NCBI GenBank assembly: GCA_017474455.1
Contig: JAFVHP010000048.1
Span: 1 to 64,000, forward strand
Direction of reading: 5' to 3'
DNA from: Lachnospiraceae bacterium
GTDB lineage: Bacteria > Bacillota > Clostridia > Lachnospirales > Lachnospiraceae
Length of the DNA stretch: 64,000 nucleotides
The first letter of the stretch is position 1. Each line of letters begins with the position of its first letter. Of the stretch, positions 13,628 to 28,326 are shown piece by piece. The position numbers and the translations under genes were made by a program. The notes below the pieces were generated by a model that saw only the letters and a list, made by a program, of their open reading frames with translations, was not told the origin of the DNA and searched no databases.

Positions 13628-15990
13628 TCAGCATTCTTTTATTTCGATGCAGCTGAAATCATTGGCTGCAAGATCGCAGGAGATATTGATCGTTCCGGAT
13701 CCGTCGACAGATACCTCCGTAAGTTCCAGCGAGGGGAGACAGGTGTTCTTCAGGTACTTTATTTCCGAAGAAGTGAGGCCGGACGGGGCCCGGTTGGACA
13801 AAAGCCAGCTCTGGATATCGCCGTGCCCGGCGCTGACGGTCTGCTTCCGGATCCTGTAGCGGCCTGGCTTAAACCCGTACAGCGCGGCCGAAAAGTGCAG
13901 GTCATCCAGATCTTTGAAATACTGCGGGATCTTTTCGGGAACAAGGTCTTTTTCCGGGACCATGAAGGCCTGAAGCCCAGTTCCTTGGTATTGAAGACGA
14001 GGAGCTGGCAGCCGCCGTCATCAGCTGAGAGAAGATAATTAGCCCCTCTTGCCGCAATTTCTGACCGGACTTTCTGCAGAAAGCCGAGGGCATGGCAGGC
14101 AGGTTTCTTTATTCCGCTGTAGGTGATGATACCCGAGCGCCCGCCAAGGATCTGTCCCGCGGCCGGGGCGGAGAGGGCGGCGTCGCTGAGCATAAGGACG
14201 GAAGCGATATCCGTCTGGTCATAGATATCAGCCATACTGGAGAGCAGGTACGCGCCGCGGAAACGGGAATCATTCAGCGTATTGCTCATCCAGGTGCTGA
14301 TATTAAAGGAGATCAGCCAGAGGGGAATATCGTCCCAGCCGGCTTCTTTGAGCAGGACTTTCAGATTGCTGAGTTCCATCCGGTAGAAATGCGGTGCAGG
14401 CGTCCAGGTGTAAAGATTGTCGGCCGGCGGGTCCGAGAGGACGTAAGGGAATGAAGTGAAGGTCACAAGGTCCGGCCGGATCCCGTTCCTGTTGAACCAG
14501 GCCAGTTCATCCCGGATGCTGCCGCTTTTATACAGGTGTCCGAACTGAGCCAGGCCGATCCTGGCTCCGGGCAGGCGCCTGCGGATCAAAAGATACTGCT
14601 GCTTTACATATTCATAGTAGCCGCCGCCTTTGAGAAATTCCGGTACAAAAGAGTACTCATCATCCTTTCCGGGCAGCCAGAGCCCGAAGACCCAGCGGGA
14701 GACCTCTTTTTCGCCGTACCGCGCGATCAGGTGCCGCAGCAGGACGTCCAGGACTCCGACAGCCTCTCCGGTGGAGGAGAATCCTTCCAGGGCGGTGATG
14801 TTCATGCCGATCAGGCCCTGGTGCTCATAGTTGTAGCTCAAATCCAGAAAAGGCGTTAGGCCGTTCTCAATGAGAAAATCCAGATTCCTGTCCACCGGGT
14901 CCAGCACATAATCGGAGATGTCGTCGGATATGTATTTTTCCAGTCCGTTTTCGGGAGAGATCACGTTCCATACCCGGACCATGTCCGCGGAATGTTCTTT
15001 CGAGACCTCCTGCAGTTCGCCCCTAATCTCATAATCGGAAAGGTCGGCCAGCCTCCCGGCGTTGACCAACCTTCCCCATGGCCTTTCAAAATGCATCCTG
15101 TCCCTGATATCCAGGCGGATGATCCCGCCGGTGTCCTCATCCGCATGCTGCGCATCGTTCAGGGAGTGGAGCAGGAGGCGCACAACGTGATCGGAGCCTT
15201 CCCGCGCGCTCCTCCTGTAGTCGGATGGTGAGATGCGGTAGACCCGCCGGAAGGCGCTGTTGAATGTGCTGATATTGGAGAAGCCGTGCGCAAGGGCGAT
15301 CTCCGTAATGCTTTTATCCGTGGAAGCCAGATCGGATACGACATGTGATAGCCTGACACTGTTCAGGTATTCGGTAAACGTCGCATTGAAAGCCTTTTTA
15401 AAATACCGGGCAAGATACGAGGCGGAGAGACCCAGCGAACGGGCGGCCTGGGCCTGGGTCAGTGGGGCTGTGTAGTTCTCTTCTATATATCCCCGCAGTA
15501 GCCTGGCCCGCTCATCGGCAGGATGCGGTCCGGAGGAAGAAATGGCAGCGCCGGTCCTTTGCGGGTTCCCGACGGTCTGCACATAGGTACGGACGGCGTA
15601 CAGCATCTGGTACAGGCAGCTCAGGCAGTAATCGTCAAAATGCCGTACGACGCGGTAGTGCATGACCATATCCAGAAAAGAGGATATACAGGCCTGTCCG
15701 TATCTGTCGCTGCGGCGGACAAAGAAGCAGGAACCGGTCAGGATATCATTGTCGTTTCCGGGTTGGAAGGAGACCCTGCACAGGATGCTGTCCGTACTGC
15801 AGTCCAGAATGAACGGCAGGCCGCTGCTGATATAAAAGAGTTCATTCTCATGGACAGGGTAGGCGATATCATCTACCGTAAGTGTGATCGCGCCGGACAG
15901 GACGTAGAACATTTCGCTGGTCTGCGGGACCAGACGGCTCCGTCCGGGGTTTTCTTCAATTCGTATTATCGGAAGTGTAAATGCATCCAT
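13628..15990 (-). CDS. AraC-family regulator fused to a GH39-like domain, frameshifted near 13970
   Basis: Three parts: a cupin-like N-terminal sensor (residues 1-90), an AraC double helix-turn-helix (about 175-270: AARSLGLSASYLARYFKKAF and ITEIALAHGFSNISTFNSAF), and a GH39-type barrel to the end. One long frame runs 15990-13759, but after NTKELGF (about 13970) it turns into low-complexity nonsense. The overlapping frame ending at 13628 continues the family sequence (FMVPEKDLVPEKIPQYF, DDLHFSAALYG). A single lost base at 13967-13971 explains both; it may be a sequencing error or a real mutation. Both expected GH39 catalytic glutamates look replaced (WVFGLWLPG; PLWLISFN), so the barrel is probably a ligand sensor. 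It is divergent from, and probably regulates, the operon at 16264-20655. Confidence 0.78.
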
Positions 15991-16263: not shown

Positions 16264-17856
16264 ATGAAAAAAAGAATAGTTGCAATACTGATGACTGCTG
16301 CGGTTATTACCTCAATGTTCACTGCATGCGCGGGAGCGGCAGGTACTGCGGCGGAATCAGCGGGACAGGCAGCGGAAGCTGTTACTGAAACAGCTGAAGA
16401 AGTCGCTGAAGCGGCAGGCGAAGCTGTCGAAGCAGCAGGTGAATGGGAGGGCGATATCGATGAGATCGTCGTCATGTTTGCCGACATGGGCGGTAAAGGC
16501 GAGAACTTCGGACCCGCTCTTGAAGCTATGAACGCGATCACAGAGAAGACGATCGGCGTTCATGCTGACGTCAAGCTCCTGAACATGGGTGATTTCACGA
16601 CTCAGGTCGGTCTTGCACTTGCAGGCGGCGAACAGCTCGACATCATGACCCCTGCCATGGGCGCCACATCCTTCACATCCCTTGTAGCCAACGGCCAGCT
16701 CTATGATCTGACAGAACTCATGGAAAACGAAGGCGCAGGCATTATGAACCTGATGGGCGATTATGTCGAAGCTGACAGAGTCGACGGCAAGATCTACGGT
16801 ATTCCTCCTTTCAGGAACTATGCCAGCTCCGTTTACATGATCATGAGGAAGGATGTCCTCGACGATCTCGGCCTTACGGAAAAGGCACAGAACCTTTCTT
16901 CCTGGAGTGAAGTGGAAGAGATCTTCGGTGCGGTAGCGGAAGGTACGGAGATATCCCCGATCGGCGCCAGCAACAAGACCGTCCTTGACGGCGGCGCAGG
17001 CCATATCTATGCGGCGGACGCTTTCTCTGATGCCATCATTTTCGACAACATCGGCGATTCTTTCATCGTCGCATTCCCTGAAGAGGACGGCACAGTTTCC
17101 TTCCTGCCCGAAAAGGCTGAGTACAGGGCTGAGCTCGATATGATCCGCCAGTGGTATCAGGACGGCTATGTATACAAAGATTCCGCGATCACGGAAGACC
17201 ATGCAGACGTTCTCATGAAGACTGGCGTTATCTTCAGTTCCGTCCAGACATCCGAGCTCGGCGTCGAAGTGGCGAAGGGAGACGCGACCGGTTATGAACT
17301 CGTCTGCACCGAGATCAGCCAGAATATGCTCACATCCGGTACGGTCGGCAAGTTCGGTCTCTGCGTACCGATCACTTCCGAAGAGCCCGAAGCGGCTGTC
17401 CGCTGGATCAATGCCCTTTACACTGATCCCGTTCTTGAGAACCTGATGATCTACGGCGTGGAAGGCACTGACTACATCGTGACCGACGGCATCGCTTCCT
17501 ATCCCGAAGGCGTCGACGGCACAACAGGTGTCTATCACCAGGTCGATTTCATGTACGGCAACCAGTTCAACCTTCTTCCCTGGACCGGCATGGAGGCTGA
17601 TTTCAGAGAGTCCACCTATGACTATATGAGATCCAGCGTGATCTCTCCTTTCATGGGCTTCTCCGCTGAAATGTCCGAACTTGCGAATGCCATCACGGCT
17701 CTGAGCGCTGTTTACGACCAGTACAGGGGCGACATCCTCTGCGGTCTCTATGACGATGCTGAATACGACGCATATATCGCAGCTCTGAAGAACGCGAATG
17801 TCGATGAGTACCTCGGCGCGCTTGAAGCACAGCTTTCCGCATGGAAGTCAAACTGA
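16264..17856 (+). CDS. Extracellular solute-binding lipoprotein, family 1 (LplA-like)
   Basis: 530 residues. The signal peptide ends at a somewhat atypical lipobox (MFTAC). An Ala/Glu-rich tether to about residue 60 is followed by an SBP fold: EIVVMFADMGGKGENF, then LALAGGEQLDIMTP and GKIYGIPPFRNYASS. The length and order fit the larger oligosaccharide-binding proteins (LplA/YtcQ type). The AAAAGGAG ribosome site lies 9 nt before the ATG. No permease or ATPase gene is adjacent, so it must use a transporter encoded elsewhere. It is followed by the deglycosidase-like genes and divergent from the AraC regulator, so it probably captures a glycoside or its sugar part. Confidence 0.83.
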   Translation: MKKRIVAILMTAAVITSMFTACAGAAGTAAESAGQAAEAVTETAEEVAEAAGEAVEAAGEWEGDIDEIVVMFADMGGKGENFGPALEAMNAITEKTIGVHADVKLLNMGDFTTQVGLALAGGEQLDIMTPAMGATSFTSLVANGQLYDLTELMENEGAGIMNLMGDYVEADRVDGKIYGIPPFRNYASSVYMIMRKDVLDDLGLTEKAQNLSSWSEVEEIFGAVAEGTEISPIGASNKTVLDGGAGHIYAADAFSDAIIFDNIGDSFIVAFPEEDGTVSFLPEKAEYRAELDMIRQWYQDGYVYKDSAITEDHADVLMKTGVIFSSVQTSELGVEVAKGDATGYELVCTEISQNMLTSGTVGKFGLCVPITSEEPEAAVRWINALYTDPVLENLMIYGVEGTDYIVTDGIASYPEGVDGTTGVYHQVDFMYGNQFNLLPWTGMEADFRESTYDYMRSSVISPFMGFSAEMSELANAITALSAVYDQYRGDILCGLYDDAEYDAYIAALKNANVDEYLGALEAQLSAWKSN

Positions 17857-17901
17857 TATAATAGCCATATCAGATAAAGATCTGTTAAAGTTATCGGAAT
17901 T

Positions 17902-17932
17902 CAGGCGGCTGCGCCGGCCGCGCAGCTGCCTG
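17902..17932 (+). other. Strong intercistronic hairpin
   Basis: 13-bp stem CAGGCGGCTGCGC/GCGCAGCTGCCTG with one mismatch and a 5-nt loop. There is no T-run. It lies between the binding-protein gene and the first alpha-subunit gene, so it may protect the upstream mRNA part and set unequal expression. Confidence 0.6.
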
Positions 17933-17956
17933 AAGACATTTACTGGAGGTTAAAAA

Positions 17957-18829
17957 ATGAGTACTTCTCAGAAACCCGGTATCCACCGCGGCGTCAGCAC
18001 TTATTGCTGGTATCCGCTCTACAATGTCAACATGACCCTTGAAGACAGCTTCGAGATCATGAAGGACATGGGCGCCCACGGCCTTGAGATCCTGGCTGAC
18101 GGCATCATTGAGGGTTATCCCTATCCCAGCAAGGAATGGCTGAACAAATGGTTCTCCCTCTGCGACCGCTACGAGATCGTTCCCGTAGAATACGGCCACT
18201 GGGTAGAATCCAAACTGTACCGCGGACGCGAACTGAATGTGGAAGAATCCCTTGAACAGCTGATCCATGACATCAAGCTGGCTTCCTATATGGGATTCAC
18301 CTGCATGCGCACCAAACTCGGCGTTATCGACGACAAGCTGACCCCCACCAAGATCTGGAGGGATTTTATCCGCAGGGCGCTTCCCTATGCGGAAAAGTAC
18401 AATGTTGTCATGCAGCCCGAGATCCACTGGCCTACAAGGCTCACTGACCAGATGATCCTCGACTATGTGGAATTCATCGAAAAGGAGCAGACACAGTATT
18501 TCGGATTCAATATCGACTTCGGCGTATTCACGACAGACGCCACCGGCATGGGCATGCCTCCGGGAATGGAACTCAATCCTTCCAAGCCCGAGGATATCAT
18601 CCCGCTCCTGCCTTATGTACACTGCTGCCATGCGAAGTATTACAACATGGACGAGAACTTTGAGGAAACGACGATCCCTTATCGCGAGGTTGTTCAGATC
18701 ATGAAGGATCATAACTGGAACGGTTATCTCCTTTCGGAATATGAAGGCCCTCATAAAGAAGATTACAACCACTGCATGACGCAGGTTAAGCGTCATCATG
18801 TCATGCTCAAGCGCATTCTGGGCGAGTGA
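17957..18829 (+). CDS. C-glycoside deglycosidase alpha-subunit-like protein (sugar phosphate isomerase/epimerase fold), copy 1
   Basis: 290 residues. An AP-endonuclease-2/xylose-isomerase-like TIM barrel. Probable metal ligands are E155 (MQPEIH), D187 (NIDFGVF), H222 or H225 (VHCCHAKYY) and E261 or E263 (LSEYEG). In known C-glycoside deglycosidases (DfgAB of Eubacterium cellulosolvens, DgpBC of a gut isolate) the catalytic alpha subunit is of this family and is encoded next to a small DUF6379 beta subunit. The same pairing occurs here, with the beta gene 20 bp downstream. The enzyme would cleave the C-C bond of a 3-oxo-glucosyl compound. The oxidoreductase that makes the 3-oxo sugar is not in this locus. 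A plain sugar isomerase remains an alternative. Confidence 0.75.
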   Translation: MSTSQKPGIHRGVSTYCWYPLYNVNMTLEDSFEIMKDMGAHGLEILADGIIEGYPYPSKEWLNKWFSLCDRYEIVPVEYGHWVESKLYRGRELNVEESLEQLIHDIKLASYMGFTCMRTKLGVIDDKLTPTKIWRDFIRRALPYAEKYNVVMQPEIHWPTRLTDQMILDYVEFIEKEQTQYFGFNIDFGVFTTDATGMGMPPGMELNPSKPEDIIPLLPYVHCCHAKYYNMDENFEETTIPYREVVQIMKDHNWNGYLLSEYEGPHKEDYNHCMTQVKRHHVMLKRILGE

Positions 18830-18849
18830 GCTACGGGAGGTAAAAAGAT

Positions 18850-19290
18850 ATGTTAGAGTATGAAGGCGTACAGTATAAGGGTTTCCGCAATATCTATAAC
18901 GAAGAGGGCGAAGCGACAGGTTTCCAGGTCGGTATCCGTATGATCGGCTACAGAGGCGCCTGGCTGTCCGAGTTCAGGTTCGGGTATATTGAAGTGGATG
19001 GCGAAAAATTCCTTGCGGACCGCTGCACATTCGTCGTCAGCGGAGTAGAGTATACCTATGAGGAAACATTCAACCTCGGCCGCGTCAAATGGCCGCTGAA
19101 CGAAGCCATGATCGTCCGCGTACAGAAGCCCGGCGGGCTCGCACAGGGCAGTCATACCGTTTCAGCGCTGTATGGCCAGGTGGCATCCTATGTGCCTTTC
19201 GGTTCAGGTGAGCTGGATATCAACCAGAAACCCGGCGGACACGGCCATTCCGAAAGCTTCGGCTATACACGTGAGATGATCATCGTCTGA
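18850..19290 (+). CDS. DUF6379, C-glycoside deglycosidase beta-subunit-like protein, copy 1
   Basis: 146 residues with no signal peptide or membrane segment and a beta-rich look: VQYKGFRNIYNEEGEATGFQ, GIRMIGYRGAWLSEFRFGY, then GVEYTYEE and a TREMIIV end. The opening and the closing MIIV are shared with the second copy. In characterised C-glycoside deglycosidases the DUF6379 subunit is the partner of the isomerase-fold subunit. The GGGAGG ribosome site is 10 nt upstream. Function is inferred from family and pairing. Confidence 0.72.
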   Translation: MLEYEGVQYKGFRNIYNEEGEATGFQVGIRMIGYRGAWLSEFRFGYIEVDGEKFLADRCTFVVSGVEYTYEETFNLGRVKWPLNEAMIVRVQKPGGLAQGSHTVSALYGQVASYVPFGSGELDINQKPGGHGHSESFGYTREMIIV

Positions 19291-19317
19291 TAAACAGTGA
19301 AAGGGGGAATAAAAACA

Positions 19318-20190
19318 ATGAGCGAAGAAAGAAAAGTGCCTAAGCGCGGTATATCGACGTACTGCTTTTATCCGCAGCTGGGCGTAAACATGGACCTTGA
19401 GGACATATTCATGCACATGCAGGATATGGGCGCGACAGGTCTTGAGATCCTGGCGGACGGGATCATTCCGGGATATCCTTATCCTTCGGAAGAATGGCTG
19501 AATAAGTGGTTCGGCCTGATCAAAAAGTATGATATCGTTCCCGTGGAGTACGGCCACTGGGTAGAATCCAGACTGTATCCCGGACAGAGGGAAGCAAGCC
19601 TTGAGGAGTCCCTGGAACAGCTGATCCGCGATATCAAGCTGGCGCATTATCTCGGCTTCACATGCATGAGGACCAAGCTCGGCGTTATTTCCGAGACACT
19701 GGATCCCGTCTCCAACTGGAGAGAGATCATCCATGAAGCCCTTCCTTACGCGGAAGCGTTCAACGTCGTCATGCAGCCCGAGATCCACGCACCGACCAAG
19801 CTGACAGACAGAATGGTCAACGATTATGTTGAGTTCATCGAGAAGGAAAACACAAAATACTTCGGCTTCAACATCGACTTCGGCGTATTCCAGAACAAGC
19901 CCGTTCCGGAGATGGCCCGCTTCTTCAGGGAAGACAGAGTCTCCAAGCCCGAAGATATCATTCCGCTTCTTCCTTACGTACACTGCTGCCATGCGAAGTA
20001 TTACAACATGAGCGCTGATTTCGAGGAGACCACGATCCCTTACCGTGAGGTGATCCAGATTATGATCGAGCATGGCTGGGACGGCTATCTTCTTTCCGAA
20101 TATGAAGGCCCTCATAAGGAAGATATCAACCACTGCATCGAGCAGGTCAGAAGGCACCATGTGTTCATGAAGAAGATCCTCGGACAGTAA
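19318..20190 (+). CDS. C-glycoside deglycosidase alpha-subunit-like protein (sugar phosphate isomerase/epimerase fold), copy 2
   Basis: 290 residues, the same length as copy 1 and clearly homologous along its whole length (shared EILADGII, YPYPS, EWLNKWF, PVEYGHWVES, YEGPHKED). All candidate metal ligands are kept: MQPEIH, NIDFGVF, VHCCHAKYY, LSEYEG. The start at 19318 follows an AGGGGG ribosome site; the longer form from 19297 reads through it. Differences concentrate in the loop after NIDFGVF (TTDATGMGMPPG in copy 1, QNKPVPEMARFF here), which may alter substrate choice. The second beta gene follows after 24 bp. Confidence 0.75.
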   Translation: MSEERKVPKRGISTYCFYPQLGVNMDLEDIFMHMQDMGATGLEILADGIIPGYPYPSEEWLNKWFGLIKKYDIVPVEYGHWVESRLYPGQREASLEESLEQLIRDIKLAHYLGFTCMRTKLGVISETLDPVSNWREIIHEALPYAEAFNVVMQPEIHAPTKLTDRMVNDYVEFIEKENTKYFGFNIDFGVFQNKPVPEMARFFREDRVSKPEDIIPLLPYVHCCHAKYYNMSADFEETTIPYREVIQIMIEHGWDGYLLSEYEGPHKEDINHCIEQVRRHHVFMKKILGQ

Positions 20191-20214
20191 TAAAAGGAAA
20201 GGAGAAAAACAGCC

Positions 20215-20655
20215 ATGATGGAAATCGAGGCCCTTCAGTATAAGGGATTTCGTAATCTTAAAGATGAAAACGGCGATATCTGCGGCTTCCAGGTAGGTAT
20301 CCGCTTTGTCGCATACCGCGGACCCTGGCTTTCCCAGTTCCGTTTCGCCTATGTCAAGGTCGATGACGTCGAGTACGGCCCTGACGTATGCACATTCTTT
20401 GTAAACGGCGTCGAGTATACTTACGCGGAGATGTTAAAGCCCGAAAACTGGCGCGTCAAAGTCCAGATGCAGGCACCTATCTACATCCATGTTAAGAAGG
20501 AAGGCGGACTTGCCATGGGCTGCCACCGTGTATCCGTCAAGTTCTCCGAGATCGCATCGTATATCCCCGAGAGGATGGACGACATCAACAGCGAGATGTT
20601 CGAGATGATGCACGGCAACGATCCCGCGTACAACCGCGATATGATCATTGTCTGA
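20215..20655 (+). CDS. DUF6379, C-glycoside deglycosidase beta-subunit-like protein, copy 2
   Basis: 146 residues, homologous to copy 1 (LQYKGFRN, GFQVGIR, YRGPWLSQFRF, NGVEYTYAE, closing NRDMIIV). The middle and C-terminal third (HVKKEGGLAMGCHRVSVKF, MFEMMHGND) diverge from copy 1, so each beta is probably matched to its own alpha. A GGAAAGGAG ribosome site lies upstream. It is the last gene of the operon before a strong terminator. The function is inferred. Confidence 0.72.
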   Translation: MMEIEALQYKGFRNLKDENGDICGFQVGIRFVAYRGPWLSQFRFAYVKVDDVEYGPDVCTFFVNGVEYTYAEMLKPENWRVKVQMQAPIYIHVKKEGGLAMGCHRVSVKFSEIASYIPERMDDINSEMFEMMHGNDPAYNRDMIIV

Positions 20656-20694
20656 TCAAAAAGGATACATTCAGATAATAATAGTCTGAACCGG

Positions 20695-20736
20695 TACTGC
20701 CGGCACGGAGCTGCACTCCTGCCGGCAGTATTTTTT
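20695..20736 (+). terminator. Intrinsic terminator of the deglycosidase-like operon
   Basis: Perfect 11-bp stem TACTGCCGGCA/TGCCGGCAGTA with a 14-nt loop, followed by TTTTTT. Confidence 0.9.
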
Positions 20737-20755
20737 GTGTTATGATAATGCAGTA

Positions 20756-26424: not shown

Positions 26425-28326
26425 ATGAAAAAGAGAATCGCTCTCCTGCTCGCTGCAATGATGATCGTATCATCACTGGCAGCCTGCAGCGGCAACGCCG
26501 CTTCGACTGAGCCCGCTCCTGCAGCTGAAGAAGCTGTGGAAGAAGCAGCGGAAGCAGTTGAAGAGGTGGCAGAAGCTGTCGAAGAAACTGCAGAAGCAGC
26601 TGAGGAAGCTGTTGAAGAAACTGCCGAAGAAGCAGCTGAAGAAGCTGTTGAAGAAGAAGCCGGCAGATCTGCAGCAGAACTTTTAAGCGATGCCTTTATC
26701 GATCCCGTAAACGACTGGGCACAGTATGACGAACTCATCGCCCAGATCAAGGCCGAGACCGATATGGCAAAGCGTACCGAGATGATGCATGAAGCAGAAG
26801 ACATCCTGATGTCCAACTTCGCTGTTATCCCGATCTACTATTACAACGATCTGTATATGCAGAAGGATTATGTCAAGGGCATTTACGCGAATGCTTTCCA
26901 GACCAAGTTCTTCATGTATGCAGAGATGGAGAACGGTGCCGACACCCTTCGCCTGAACCTTGCTTCCGAGCCGGATTATCTTGATCCTGCCCTGAACAGC
27001 TCAGTTGACGGAGCCTGCCTTGCAGCCAACTCATTCTCCGGCCTGTATACCTACAATGCAGACGGCCAGACCGTTCCCGCATGCGCGGAAGGTTATGAGG
27101 TCACAGAAGACGGCCTTACCTATACGGTCACCCTTAAAGACGGCCTTAAATGGTCCGACGGTTCCGACCTGACAGCGGAAGACTTTGTTTACAGCTGGAA
27201 GAGAGCTACCGATCCCATGACAGCAGCTGACTATGAATACATGTTCTCAGGCTTTGACGGATACGGCACTGATGACGGTATCAACGTAACTGCAGTTGAC
27301 GCTACTACACTTGAGTTCGTTCTTTCCGCTCCCTGCGCTTATATGGAAGACCTTATGGCATTCCCTACATTCTATCCCGTCAAGCAGTCTGAGGTAGAAT
27401 CCTATGCAGATTGGGAGACCACTCCCGGCGGATGGTGCCAGGAAGCCGGCTTTGTCAGCAACGGTGCTTATGTCTGCACAGGCTGGAACCATGACACTTC
27501 CATGACATATGAGAAGAACCCTTATTTCTGGGATGCTGACAATGTCAAGATCGAAAAGCTTGAGTTCATGCTTTCCGCTGACGACACAGCTATCTATGCT
27601 GCTTACAATTCAGACAGCGTTGATTTCATCGACTCTGTTCCCACTGATGAAGTTGCAGCCCTTCTTGAGTCCAATAACCCCGAGTTCCACGTTATCGACG
27701 CTCTCGGCACATACTACATCGCGTTCAACGTCGGTTCCAAACTCTTCGCTGACAAGACTCCCGAACAGGCAGCCTGCATGCGTAAGGCTATCAACATCCT
27801 GATCGACAGGGACTACATCGTTGAGAATATCGGCCAGACCGGCCAGGTCATTGCCACTTCCTACATCCCGCTCGGAATGATGGACGGCAACGGCGGCATC
27901 TTCAAGGATGACCCCGCTCAGGGTTACTATGATGCATATGCCATCAATGAAAACTATGACGAAACAGTAGCTGAAGCGATCGAACTGCTTAAGGCAGCAG
28001 GCTTCGAATTTGATGAGGACGGCACCCTTTCCGATGCTACTCCTATCGAGATCGAATATCTGACCAACGAGAGCTCAGGCCACATCGCCATTGCCGAGTC
28101 CCTTCAGCAGGATCTGGCAGTTGTCGGTATCACATCTCCATCGCTGTTCAGGACTGGAACGTATTCCTTGAGGAACGTAAGAACGGCAACTTCGATATGG
28201 CTCGTGAAGGCTGGATCGCCGACTTCAACGACCCGATCAACATGCTTGAGATGTTCACAACAACATCCGGCAACAACGATCCTCAGTTCGGCCGCAAGTA
28301 ATTTACTGATACCGAACGGGATCTGA
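26425..28326 (+). CDS. OppA-like peptide-binding lipoprotein, circularly permuted and frameshifted
   Basis: Signal peptide with lipobox LAAC, then a 50-residue Glu/Ala tether. Residues about 97-170 (QYDELIAQIKAETDMAKRTE, VIPIYYYNDLY, FFMYAEM) are what normally forms the C-terminal end of OppA. Only then comes the normal N-terminal part (LRLNLASEPDYLDPALN) and the body. Around 28128-28135 the frame breaks: the open frame ends in nonsense at 28326. The neighbouring frame reads ISIAVQDWNVFLEE, then GWIADFNDPINMLEMF, and stops at 28301 after NNDPQFGRK, just where the moved segment would continue. So the chain is circularly permuted, with one base probably missing. Either real rearrangement or misassembly of two tandem oppA copies could cause this. 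AAGGAGGAG ribosome site. Confidence 0.75.
   Translation: MKKRIALLLAAMMIVSSLAACSGNAASTEPAPAAEEAVEEAAEAVEEVAEAVEETAEAAEEAVEETAEEAAEEAVEEEAGRSAAELLSDAFIDPVNDWAQYDELIAQIKAETDMAKRTEMMHEAEDILMSNFAVIPIYYYNDLYMQKDYVKGIYANAFQTKFFMYAEMENGADTLRLNLASEPDYLDPALNSSVDGACLAANSFSGLYTYNADGQTVPACAEGYEVTEDGLTYTVTLKDGLKWSDGSDLTAEDFVYSWKRATDPMTAADYEYMFSGFDGYGTDDGINVTAVDATTLEFVLSAPCAYMEDLMAFPTFYPVKQSEVESYADWETTPGGWCQEAGFVSNGAYVCTGWNHDTSMTYEKNPYFWDADNVKIEKLEFMLSADDTAIYAAYNSDSVDFIDSVPTDEVAALLESNNPEFHVIDALGTYYIAFNVGSKLFADKTPEQAACMRKAINILIDRDYIVENIGQTGQVIATSYIPLGMMDGNGGIFKDDPAQGYYDAYAINENYDETVAEAIELLKAAGFEFDEDGTLSDATPIEIEYLTNESSGHIAIAESLQQDLAVVGITSPSLFRTGTYSLRNVRTATSIWLVKAGSPTSTTRSTCLRCSQQHPATTILSSAASNLLIPNGI

Follow-up and report, generated by a model that had tools for sequence, protein, structure and literature searches.

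Known C-glycoside deglycosidases and the locus described here

The C–C glycosidic bond resists ordinary glycosidases, and the C-glycoside deglycosidases (CGDs) that cleave it are built from an alpha and a beta subunit. The Eubacterium cellulosolvens enzyme DfgAB, also called EuCGD (PDB 7bvs, 7dre, and 7exb), acts on C6-glycosyl compounds and, like the genes described here, has separate alpha and beta subunits. DgpBC (PuCGD) of strain PUE (PDB 7bvr) goes together with DgpA, and a fused CGD (8qrz) carries beta and alpha in that order in one chain. According to PMC11170127, dgpABC is a single operon in strain PUE, and in Catenibacillus there is more than one dgpBC cluster and dgpA lies apart from them, a separation reported for C. 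scindens, C. faecavium, and C. tixagia.

The window analyzed here is a stretch of 64,000 nucleotides (C30:1-64000; C30 is its contig, and C19 and C41 are further contigs of the same genome). All of the genes named in an earlier, sequence-only reading of this DNA are open at the positions listed:

13628..13963, minus strand: separate ORF overlapping the regulator, apparently its missing C-terminal end (blastp to the paralogue C19_138925)
13759..15990, minus strand: AraC-type regulator with a GH39-like domain, divergent from the operon (PF12833, 85.1 bits; PF01229, 67 bits)
16264..17856, plus strand: solute-binding lipoprotein of the DUF3502 family, 530 aa (PF12010, 33.3 bits; lipobox read by eye)
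17900..17934, plus strand: 15-bp stem-loop without a T-run, in the gap between the binding protein and alpha1 (by folding)
17957..18829, plus strand: CGD alpha1, 290 aa, predicted Mn2+-site TIM-barrel subunit of DfgA type (PF01261, 47.9 bits)
18850..19290, plus strand: CGD beta1, 146 aa, CGDB/DUF6379 subunit (PF19906, 87.5 bits)
19318..20190, plus strand: CGD alpha2, 290 aa (PF01261, 49.7 bits; alternative start, GTG at 19297)
20215..20655, plus strand: CGD beta2, 146 aa (PF19906, 80.1 bits)
20693..20737, plus strand: putative intrinsic terminator at the operon end, a GC-rich stem followed by TTTTTT (by folding)

The window shares its metal site and beta family with DfgAB. It differs in that its pairs form a sister clade, stand two in tandem behind their own binding protein, and lack a DfgE-like Gfo/Idh gene within these 64,000 nucleotides. 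The stretch 17857-17956 folds at -37.9 kcal/mol (z -4.43) and the terminator at -29.1 kcal/mol (z -4.82), and in neither case did any of 200 shuffles fold equally well. A pattern scan for promoters and terminators that allowed only loops of 3-8 found nothing above chance and missed the 20693..20737 hairpin. Differential expression of the binding protein and alpha1 is a possible role of the 17900..17934 stem-loop.

The alpha and beta subunits

Both betas pass the CGDB model PF19906 (cut-off 27.6 bits), and both alphas pass PF01261 (cut-off 31.1 bits). The nearest solved chain to the alphas is 7bvs_A (331.7 bits for alpha1 and 334.2 bits for alpha2), and the nearest to the betas is its partner chain 7bvs_B, which bears the name DfgB (82.2 bits for beta1 and 69.8 bits for beta2). 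Each alpha is ∼52% identical to DfgA and 31-33% identical to the DgpBC alpha subunit. In a tree of CGD relatives with five solved references and no isomerase outgroup, so that the contrast with isomerases comes from bit scores, the window alphas and DfgA share a clade with 100/99 support from which the fused 8qrz enzyme is excluded. An AlphaFold2 (AF2) model of alpha1 has a mean pLDDT of 80.1, and that of beta1, which is mostly strands, 80.0.

The sequence-only reading had counted four candidate metal ligands in both alphas; the published Mn2+ set is five (E, D, H, K, E), and all five are present in alpha1 and alpha2 together with the catalytic His. Among the 35 alpha-profile matches in the regions read of this genome, which has 48 PF01261 matches, the five ligands are found in 35/35 and the base His in 34/35, the exception being C19_100775, a lone, long-branched paralogue. 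Of 35 alphas from other genomes, three are without the base His, with Asn in two and a gap in the third, and a fragment among the 35 has Tyr in place of the His ligand. The metal-binding His of HAK in the alphas described here is replaced by Gln in the fused 8qrz enzyme.

DgpBC shares with the window the metal ligands, the base His, and the equivalent of Tyr39-beta (DgpB numbering). This residue is Tyr in both window betas, in 33/33 betas of this genome (34 ORFs less C19_99301, an alternative ORF with Gln in that column), and in 32/32 betas of others. Replacement of Tyr39-beta by Phe in PuCGE abolishes >99% of C-glycoside activity and lowers O-glycoside activity only 2.4-fold (PMC10628242).

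Distances among the alphas track those among their betas (r 0.843, 31 pairs; 0/5000 shuffles as high). Of the 33 betas, 31 entered this comparison, all but that of the window alpha2/beta2 pair and the one at C19:132920, and the beta at C41:50622 was paired with one of the two alphas adjoining it. Judged by their sequences, the window pairs are DfgAB-type C-glycoside deglycosidases, predicted 3-oxo-glycoside beta-eliminases, and not plain isomerases, which agrees with the initial proposal of deglycosidase-like pairs.

Divergence between the two pairs

The two alphas share 71.2% identity over 285 columns and the two betas 46.5% over 129 columns, and the alphas differ in the loop after NIDFGVF. 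The earlier statement that the betas and this loop differ most stands because of these identities and the divergence of the loop. Alpha1 and alpha2 also each have a nearest relative of their own in other genomes, as expected of two diverged copies, and dN/dS is 0.09-0.15 in the alpha1 and beta1 comparisons and 0.11 for alpha2 against its relative in genome G038. We suggest that the two pairs, closest in type to DfgAB, would descend from an old duplication and have different aglycone pockets. Any guess at a C6 preference is weak because the window alphas are sister to the DfgA group rather than within it.

Binding protein and regulator

The 16264-17856 product has extracellular solute-binding proteins as its nearest solved chains (80 bits) and is one of 21 DUF3502 genes in the genome. 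Eleven of the 21 lie ≤5 kb from a CGDB gene (binomial p 1.9e-6) and ten lie farther; this and the other linkage p-values take gene positions as independent and use distances set once the loci were seen. The solute-binding lipoprotein first recognized from sequence is thus of a kind linked to CGDs genome-wide. Only 1/21 lies ≤3 kb from a permease gene. The window gene has no permease within 3 kb and hence no adjacent permease pair; the nearest permease match, ∼5 kb away, is in a cluster read as peptide-type. Scoring of part of the 40 PF00528 matches, mostly those not read as peptide-like, gave two strong permease pairs of the DUF3502 partner type. A permease pair lies at C19:131028-132899. MATE exporters (∼35 genes) lie ≤10 kb from a CGDB gene in 13 cases (p 0.007) and ≤5 kb in four, and since the 5-kb linkage has p 0.49, a role as aglycone exporters is offered as a remark only.

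The divergent AraC/GH39 regulator of the sequence-only reading was borne out (HTH_18 and GH39). When its pieces are searched apart, the regulator ORF loses homology at about residue 665 and continues in the wrong frame beyond that point; ORF 13628..13963 matches residues 709-813 of C19_138925 (36% over 105 aa, E 2.7e-20). The window's own copy therefore looks frameshifted. Five of the six GH39-match genes in the genome lie ≤5 kb from a CGDB gene (6.4e-5). We also read CGD loci in relatives from the same genus, order, and phylum (G005, G025, G038, G039, G040, G053, G089, G260, and G480). They have the same alpha and beta families and, in places, a DUF3502 protein with a permease pair. AraC-GH39 genes are present in 10/13 of their CGD regions, as called by profiles from the own genome in regions of which some stop at contig edges, the G260 match being partial. 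CGD loci are repeatedly accompanied by an AraC-GH39 regulator, both in this genome and in its relatives. For a shared motif upstream of 46 CGD and binding-protein genes, only ribosome-binding-site-like and A/T-rich words beat shuffles, so we claim no regulon motif.

Candidate oxidoreductase partners

The Gfo/Idh 3-oxidoreductase of DgpABC/DfgABCDE-type operons has no counterpart in C30:1-64000, where PF01408 has no match; the nearest on the contig is at C30:82025. The reported absence of an adjacent gene is correct. A genome-wide search for the partner, as proposed earlier, gave 15 PF01408 matches, 14 over the cut-off and all outside the window, and in contrast to strain PUE the oxidoreductase would act in trans. 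The absence had been taken as unusual. That view did not hold, and the idea that a missing oxidoreductase marks a new pathway was dropped as the main point, because dgpA is unlinked in Catenibacillus too (PMC11170127) and because of the 15 matches in this genome.

Which genes are the partners is a guess, since Gfo/Idh genes are hardly enriched near CGDs: 1/15 lies ≤5 kb away (p 0.8) and 5/15 lie ≤7 kb away (p 0.044). A tree made by a quick method with 13/15 of the genome's matches places C30_82016 as a long outlier to a tight DgpA clade that contains none of the genome's genes, and up to nine of these group with CGD-region genes of relatives. Gfo/Idh genes, likewise called by profiles from the own genome, occur in 11/13 CGD regions read in nine other genomes, and alpha2's nearest relative (G038) sits in a stretch with three. 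The relatives' CGD-region genes fall in more than three groups of the tree, which weakens the step to a shared oxidoreductase.

Genome-wide repertoire

Scoring of 37/37 candidates in the 2.62 Mb genome gives 33 CGDB matches in 26 clusters, and the two window pairs are two of these 33 sets. Any CGDB match at all was found in 15/391 other genomes of an order sample (one, G780, under the family cut-off) and 3/397 of a phylum sample, with 1-2 each. The largest counts elsewhere are 9, in the same genus, and at least 25 and at least 14 in partial sequence of two Oscillospiraceae MAGs (25 and 14 within 1.6 and 0.9 Mb). The relatives whose loci were read have 1-9 CGDB per genome; by comparison, the CGDs here are dispersed and mostly without Gfo/Idh. 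The published genomes consulted hold up to six or seven CGD clusters, with four in Catenibacillus scindens and six plus DfgAB in C. decagia (PMC11170127), against 33 CGDB here. The same source gives C. decagia 11 DgpA homologues for its six clusters, so that the oxidoreductase:cluster ratio in this genome runs opposite.

The alphas of the genome have a median pairwise identity of 28.5%. Three genes, forming one clade, are fused in alpha-beta order, unlike 8qrz, and one (C19:133439-134851) has the beta-alpha order of 8qrz. The beta at C19:99137-99666 is split across two frames.

Proposed mechanism and alternatives

In the mechanism we propose, the DUF3502 lipoprotein would capture a glycoside and pass it to an ABC permease presumably encoded elsewhere. 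A DgpA-like Gfo/Idh oxidoreductase acting in trans would oxidize the C3-OH of the glucosyl group; the oxidant is probably 3-oxo-glucose, following chemistry published for DgpA. Each alpha/beta heteromer would then take the 3-oxo-glycoside as substrate; the alpha Mn2+ (Glu, Asp, His, Lys, Glu) and His base would remove H2'' for beta-elimination, and the conserved Tyr of beta would steady the phenolate leaving from carbon. This elimination mechanism has been published for PuCGD and relatives, with which the window shares residues only. The AraC-GH39 protein, if functional, may sense the substrate. As a full mechanism, uptake and C–C (or C–O) cleavage of plant aryl glycosides is the probable function of the window operon.

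Across the genome, 33 enzyme sets and orphan binding proteins would be served by few permease pairs and by no more than 15 Gfo/Idh genes. We read this as a hub-and-spoke arrangement in which shared permeases and fewer oxidoreductases would serve many aglycone-specific CGDs. "Few" is relative for the oxidoreductases because up to nine group with relatives' CGD-region Gfo/Idh. We put forward, tentatively and without yet favoring it outright, that a (probably ruminant) gut Oscillospiraceae clade lives on plant C- and O-glycosides that it cleaves by 3-oxo beta-elimination, with ∼30 aglycone-specific CGDs including alpha-beta fusions, ∼20 exchangeable binding proteins, one or two permeases used in common, and broad 3-oxidoreductases in smaller number. 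We found no description of such a catabolic architecture for C-glycosides in the literature searched.

The main alternative concerns the substrates. The sets could be mainly 3-oxo-O-glycoside eliminases for commoner plant O-glycosides, with C-glycoside cleavage incidental, which we regard as unlikely but deserving of weight. PuCGE cleaves 3-keto O- and C-glucosides, and a generalist role has been proposed with the argument that O-glycosides are commoner and more diverse (PMC10628242). Against this, a Tyr important for C- and of little account for O-glycosides is kept in every one of the genome's betas, which would be hard to explain for enzymes used on O-glycosides alone, unless the residue is retained for structural reasons. 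It is improbable that the cell imports glycosides already C3-oxidized by community members and needs no oxidoreductase. The window without a Gfo/Idh gene, the weak linkage in this genome, and the CGD arrays of RGIG5648 and SIG488 (0/2 with Gfo/Idh beside them in the 20 kb read of each) fit such import, but most CGD regions of the nine other genomes do contain Gfo/Idh genes and this genome has relatives of them.

More remote readings concern the genes and the genome themselves. The alphas fall in the xylose isomerase-like TIM barrel superfamily (PF01261), yet the chance that they are plain sugar-phosphate isomerases or epimerases beside a chance neighbor is close to nil: we reject this because of the covarying CGDB partners, the scores to 7bvs_A (331.7 and 334.2 bits, the general Pfam model giving 48-50), and their placement with DfgA, where the sequence-only reading had allowed for a grouping with plain isomerases. 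That the 33-fold count is an artifact of a mixed or contaminated bin is very improbable. The assembly is in 51 contigs, but the bin's listed completeness is 96.55% and its contamination 1.3%, the CGDB matches are spread over 14 contigs, including those of 327, 292, 271, 224, and 207 kb, and two further MAGs carry at least 25 and at least 14 matches.

Implications

Such a repertoire suggests specialization on plant glycosides in what is probably a ruminant gut bacterium. The 33 diverse sets, with catalytic residues kept, provide a ready panel for alpha/beta aglycone specificity (C6, C8, and O-linked), and the idea of a shared permease and shared oxidoreductase becomes directly testable. Uncultured, probably ruminant bacteria of this kind are likely to degrade C-glycosyl flavones in animals that feed on plants.

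An Extreme CGD Expansion

The source genome of the window (2,624,103 bases in 51 contigs, 96.55% complete, 1.3% contamination) is an extreme expansion of C-glycoside deglycosidases (CGDs), undescribed as far as we searched, with unusually distributed parts. It holds 33 matches to the beta-subunit family CGDB, every one above the cut-off, which are spread over 14 contigs and form 26 clusters at 10 kb linkage. In the genus, CGDB was present in 7 of 62 genomes, with counts of 33, 9, 5, 2, 2, 1, and 1. Even sampling of the order gave 16 matching genomes out of 392, including this one and one below the cut-off, and the other 15 carry 1 or 2; an even phylum-wide sample gave 4 of 398, with counts of 1, 1, and 2 in the three besides this one. 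The nearest relatives of alpha1, the first catalytic subunit in the window, are found in two Oscillospiraceae MAGs, RGIG5648 from sheep duodenum (14 CGDB matches in 0.9 Mb covered) and SIG488 (25 in 1.6 Mb covered). Because one of these two related MAGs has a stated source, a ruminant origin is probable. Published dgpBC clusters include six in C. decagia, besides DfgAB, and four in C. scindens (PMC11170127); no description of a bigger set was found in the search listings, which leave out subscription papers and preprints.

The Window Locus

The window contains a compact plus-strand unit of five genes (lipoprotein, alpha1, beta1, alpha2, beta2), in which 20-27 bases separate neighbouring enzyme genes.

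Features of the window locus
13759-15990, minus: AraC regulator with a GH39-like domain (Pfam), divergent, upstream of the unit
16264-17856, plus: DUF3502 solute-binding lipoprotein, open reading frame
17900-17934, plus: 15-bp hairpin without a T-run, between the binding-protein gene and alpha1 (fold, z -4.43)
17957-18829, plus: alpha1, open reading frame
18850-19290, plus: beta1, open reading frame
19318-20190, plus: alpha2, open reading frame
20215-20655, plus: beta2, open reading frame
20693-20737, plus: strong hairpin followed by TTTTTT at the end of the unit (fold, -29.1 kcal/mol, z -4.82)

From the position of the 17900-17934 hairpin, we infer that the binding protein could be made in excess. 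In the stretch 13628-15990 (minus), the homologous frame of the regulator ends near residue 665, with a frame change near the 3' end, and the lost C-terminal end is matched by an overlapping open reading frame in another frame (13628-13963, minus); the break would be either a sequencing error or the mark of a pseudogene. Elsewhere in the window, a binding-protein-like open reading frame (26425-28326) has an end that looks out of frame by eye.

Against Pfam CGDB (cut-off 27.6), beta1 and beta2 score 87.5 and 80.1 bits; alpha1 and alpha2 each hit the xylose isomerase-like barrel. The best solved chain for alpha1 and alpha2 is 7bvs_A (331.7 and 334.2 bits, 51.8 and 52.7% identity), whose partner chain, 7bvs_B, bears the name DfgB. 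The metal ligands reported for CGDs are Glu, Asp, His, Lys, and Glu, with a His base (Mori et al., PMC8563793), and the alignment shows that both alphas keep all six. In PuCGE, the beta Tyr39-to-Phe change is reported to lower C-glycoside activity by >99% and O-glycoside activity only 2.4-fold (Bitter et al., PMC10628242); beta1 and beta2 both have Tyr in the equivalent column. AlphaFold models are fair (mean pLDDT 80.1 for alpha1 and 80.0 for beta1, from shallow alignments of 7 and 9 sequences). Taken as a locus, it adds a new member, accompanied by a binding protein, to the DfgAB-type CGDs, a good find and not a startling one.

History of the Two Pairs

The alphas are 71.2% identical and the betas 46.5%. 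The tree, built from 70 alphas plus 5 solved references, pairs alpha1 with an alpha of RGIG5648 (support 100/98) and alpha2 with one from another genome, G038 (98/94); the seven alphas of the window group are sister to the DfgA-containing group within a 100/99 clade. The simplest reading of this topology is that the pair duplication predates the split from the RGIG5648 and G038 genomes, with both copies retained; transfer between genomes is a possible alternative. Whole pairs do duplicate, since two tandem alpha/beta pairs in SIG488 (stretch L035, 9956-12706) are near-identical, recent copies. Rough dN/dS values against RGIG5648 are 0.09 (alpha1) and 0.10 (beta1); alpha1 gives 0.15 with SIG488, and alpha2 0.11 with G038. 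For beta2 against G038, synonymous sites are saturated and the raw pN/pS is 0.34, also rough. Because EuCGD is reported to accept C6-glycosyl and not C8-glycosyl compounds (PMC8563793), we offer C6-glycosyl flavones as a weak guess at the substrate type of the window pairs.

Conservation across the Genome

Fetched regions of the genome supplied 35 alphas, namely, 34 plus a lone paralogue, C19_100775. All 35 keep the five metal ligands, 34 keep the base His, and the C-cleavage Tyr is kept in 33 of 33 betas, so that the sets look functional. Pairwise identity among the alphas is low (median 28.5%, maximum 77.8%), so that recent copies are few among them. Over 31 pairs, the distances of alphas and of betas correlate at r 0.843, with 0.275 the highest value among 5000 shuffles, as would be the case if pairs stay together. 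The genes present, the operon's shape, the conservation of catalytic residues, and the covariation of pairs were all observed directly.

Four sets are single-chain fusions, three alpha-beta and one beta-alpha. The solved fused enzyme 8qrz is beta-alpha, an order that is shared by one fusion and reversed in the other three.

Single-chain fusions in the genome
C6:71427-72842: alpha-beta, same clade as the other two alpha-beta fusions (100/100)
C19:141571-143028: alpha-beta, same clade (100/100)
C26:193016-194461: alpha-beta, same clade (100/100)
C19:133439: beta-alpha, order as in 8qrz

The CGDB match at C19:99137-99666 (stretch L022) is divided between two reading frames, so that this member of the 33 betas may be a broken gene. 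A separate, long-branched alpha paralogue lies near CGD sets here (C19:100775-101755) and in two other genomes (G040.C126:14077-14997 and G480.C4:77906-78820); it keeps the metal ligands, carries Asn where the catalytic His would be, and may act in another step.

Partners of the CGD Sets

Eleven of 21 DUF3502 matches lie ≤5 kb from a CGDB match (binomial 1.9e-6), against a 5-kb proximity background of 10.3% of the genome, as do 5 of 6 GH39-match regulators (p 6.4e-5). Just 1 of the 21 DUF3502 genes has a permease match ≤3 kb away. Permeases resembling its neighbours form two strong pairs, C19:106063-108421 and C19:130944-132896 (160-736 bits), and the remaining scored places reach ≤81 bits. 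Linkage of binding proteins and regulators to CGDs is directly observed, as is the scarcity of neighbouring permeases and oxidoreductases. Relatives with few CGDs show a more compact arrangement, with Gfo/Idh genes in 11 and AraC-GH39 genes in 10 of the 13 regions read; in genome G025, three CGD sets stand in one row with a binding protein, two permeases, Gfo/Idh, and a regulator. RGIG5648 and SIG488, both many-set genomes like this one, showed neither Gfo/Idh (0 of 2) nor AraC-GH39 (0 of 2) in their 20-kb stretches.

The genome also has 69 MatE matches, which correspond to ∼35 MATE-family genes over its 2.62 Mb; 13 of these genes lie ≤10 kb from a CGDB match. Aglycone export by MATE proteins is a possibility, with an enrichment that is weak and distance-dependent. 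No CGDB match falls in the stretch C15:74361-84788 (L063), where a strong PF01261 barrel stands together with a DUF3502 binding protein, an AraC-GH39 regulator, and a MATE gene; this may be a sister system that lacks the beta subunit.

Oxidoreductases and Proposed Mechanism

PF01408 (Gfo/Idh) matches number 15, and linkage to CGDs is barely present. We placed 13 of the 15, named by contig and position, in a tree with those from relatives' CGD regions. C30_82016 is an outlier to the DgpA clade and C17_61051 to a second CGD-region clade; C21_34826, C26_82581, and C51_13263 group inside or beside CGD-region genes of G038 and G025, C11_26829 and C36_29243 inside or beside one G025 gene, and C30_196036 and C6_35913 more loosely with relatives' CGD-region genes. 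Up to nine genes are therefore candidate partners, none proven. Sharing of oxidoreductases is plausible because D3dgpA is reported to oxidise numerous C- and O-glycosides, with the puerarin specificity of Dorea assigned by the authors to the CGD and not to the oxidoreductase (PMC11239390).

The chemistry published for other systems is 3-oxidation by DgpA-type enzymes followed by metal-assisted beta-elimination by CGDs, and the proteins of this genome would perform the same two steps. Fewer oxidoreductases and one or two permeases would be shared among the many CGD sets and binding proteins, alpha1/beta1 and alpha2/beta2 would act on different aglycones, and the natural substrates may be forage C-glycosyl flavones.
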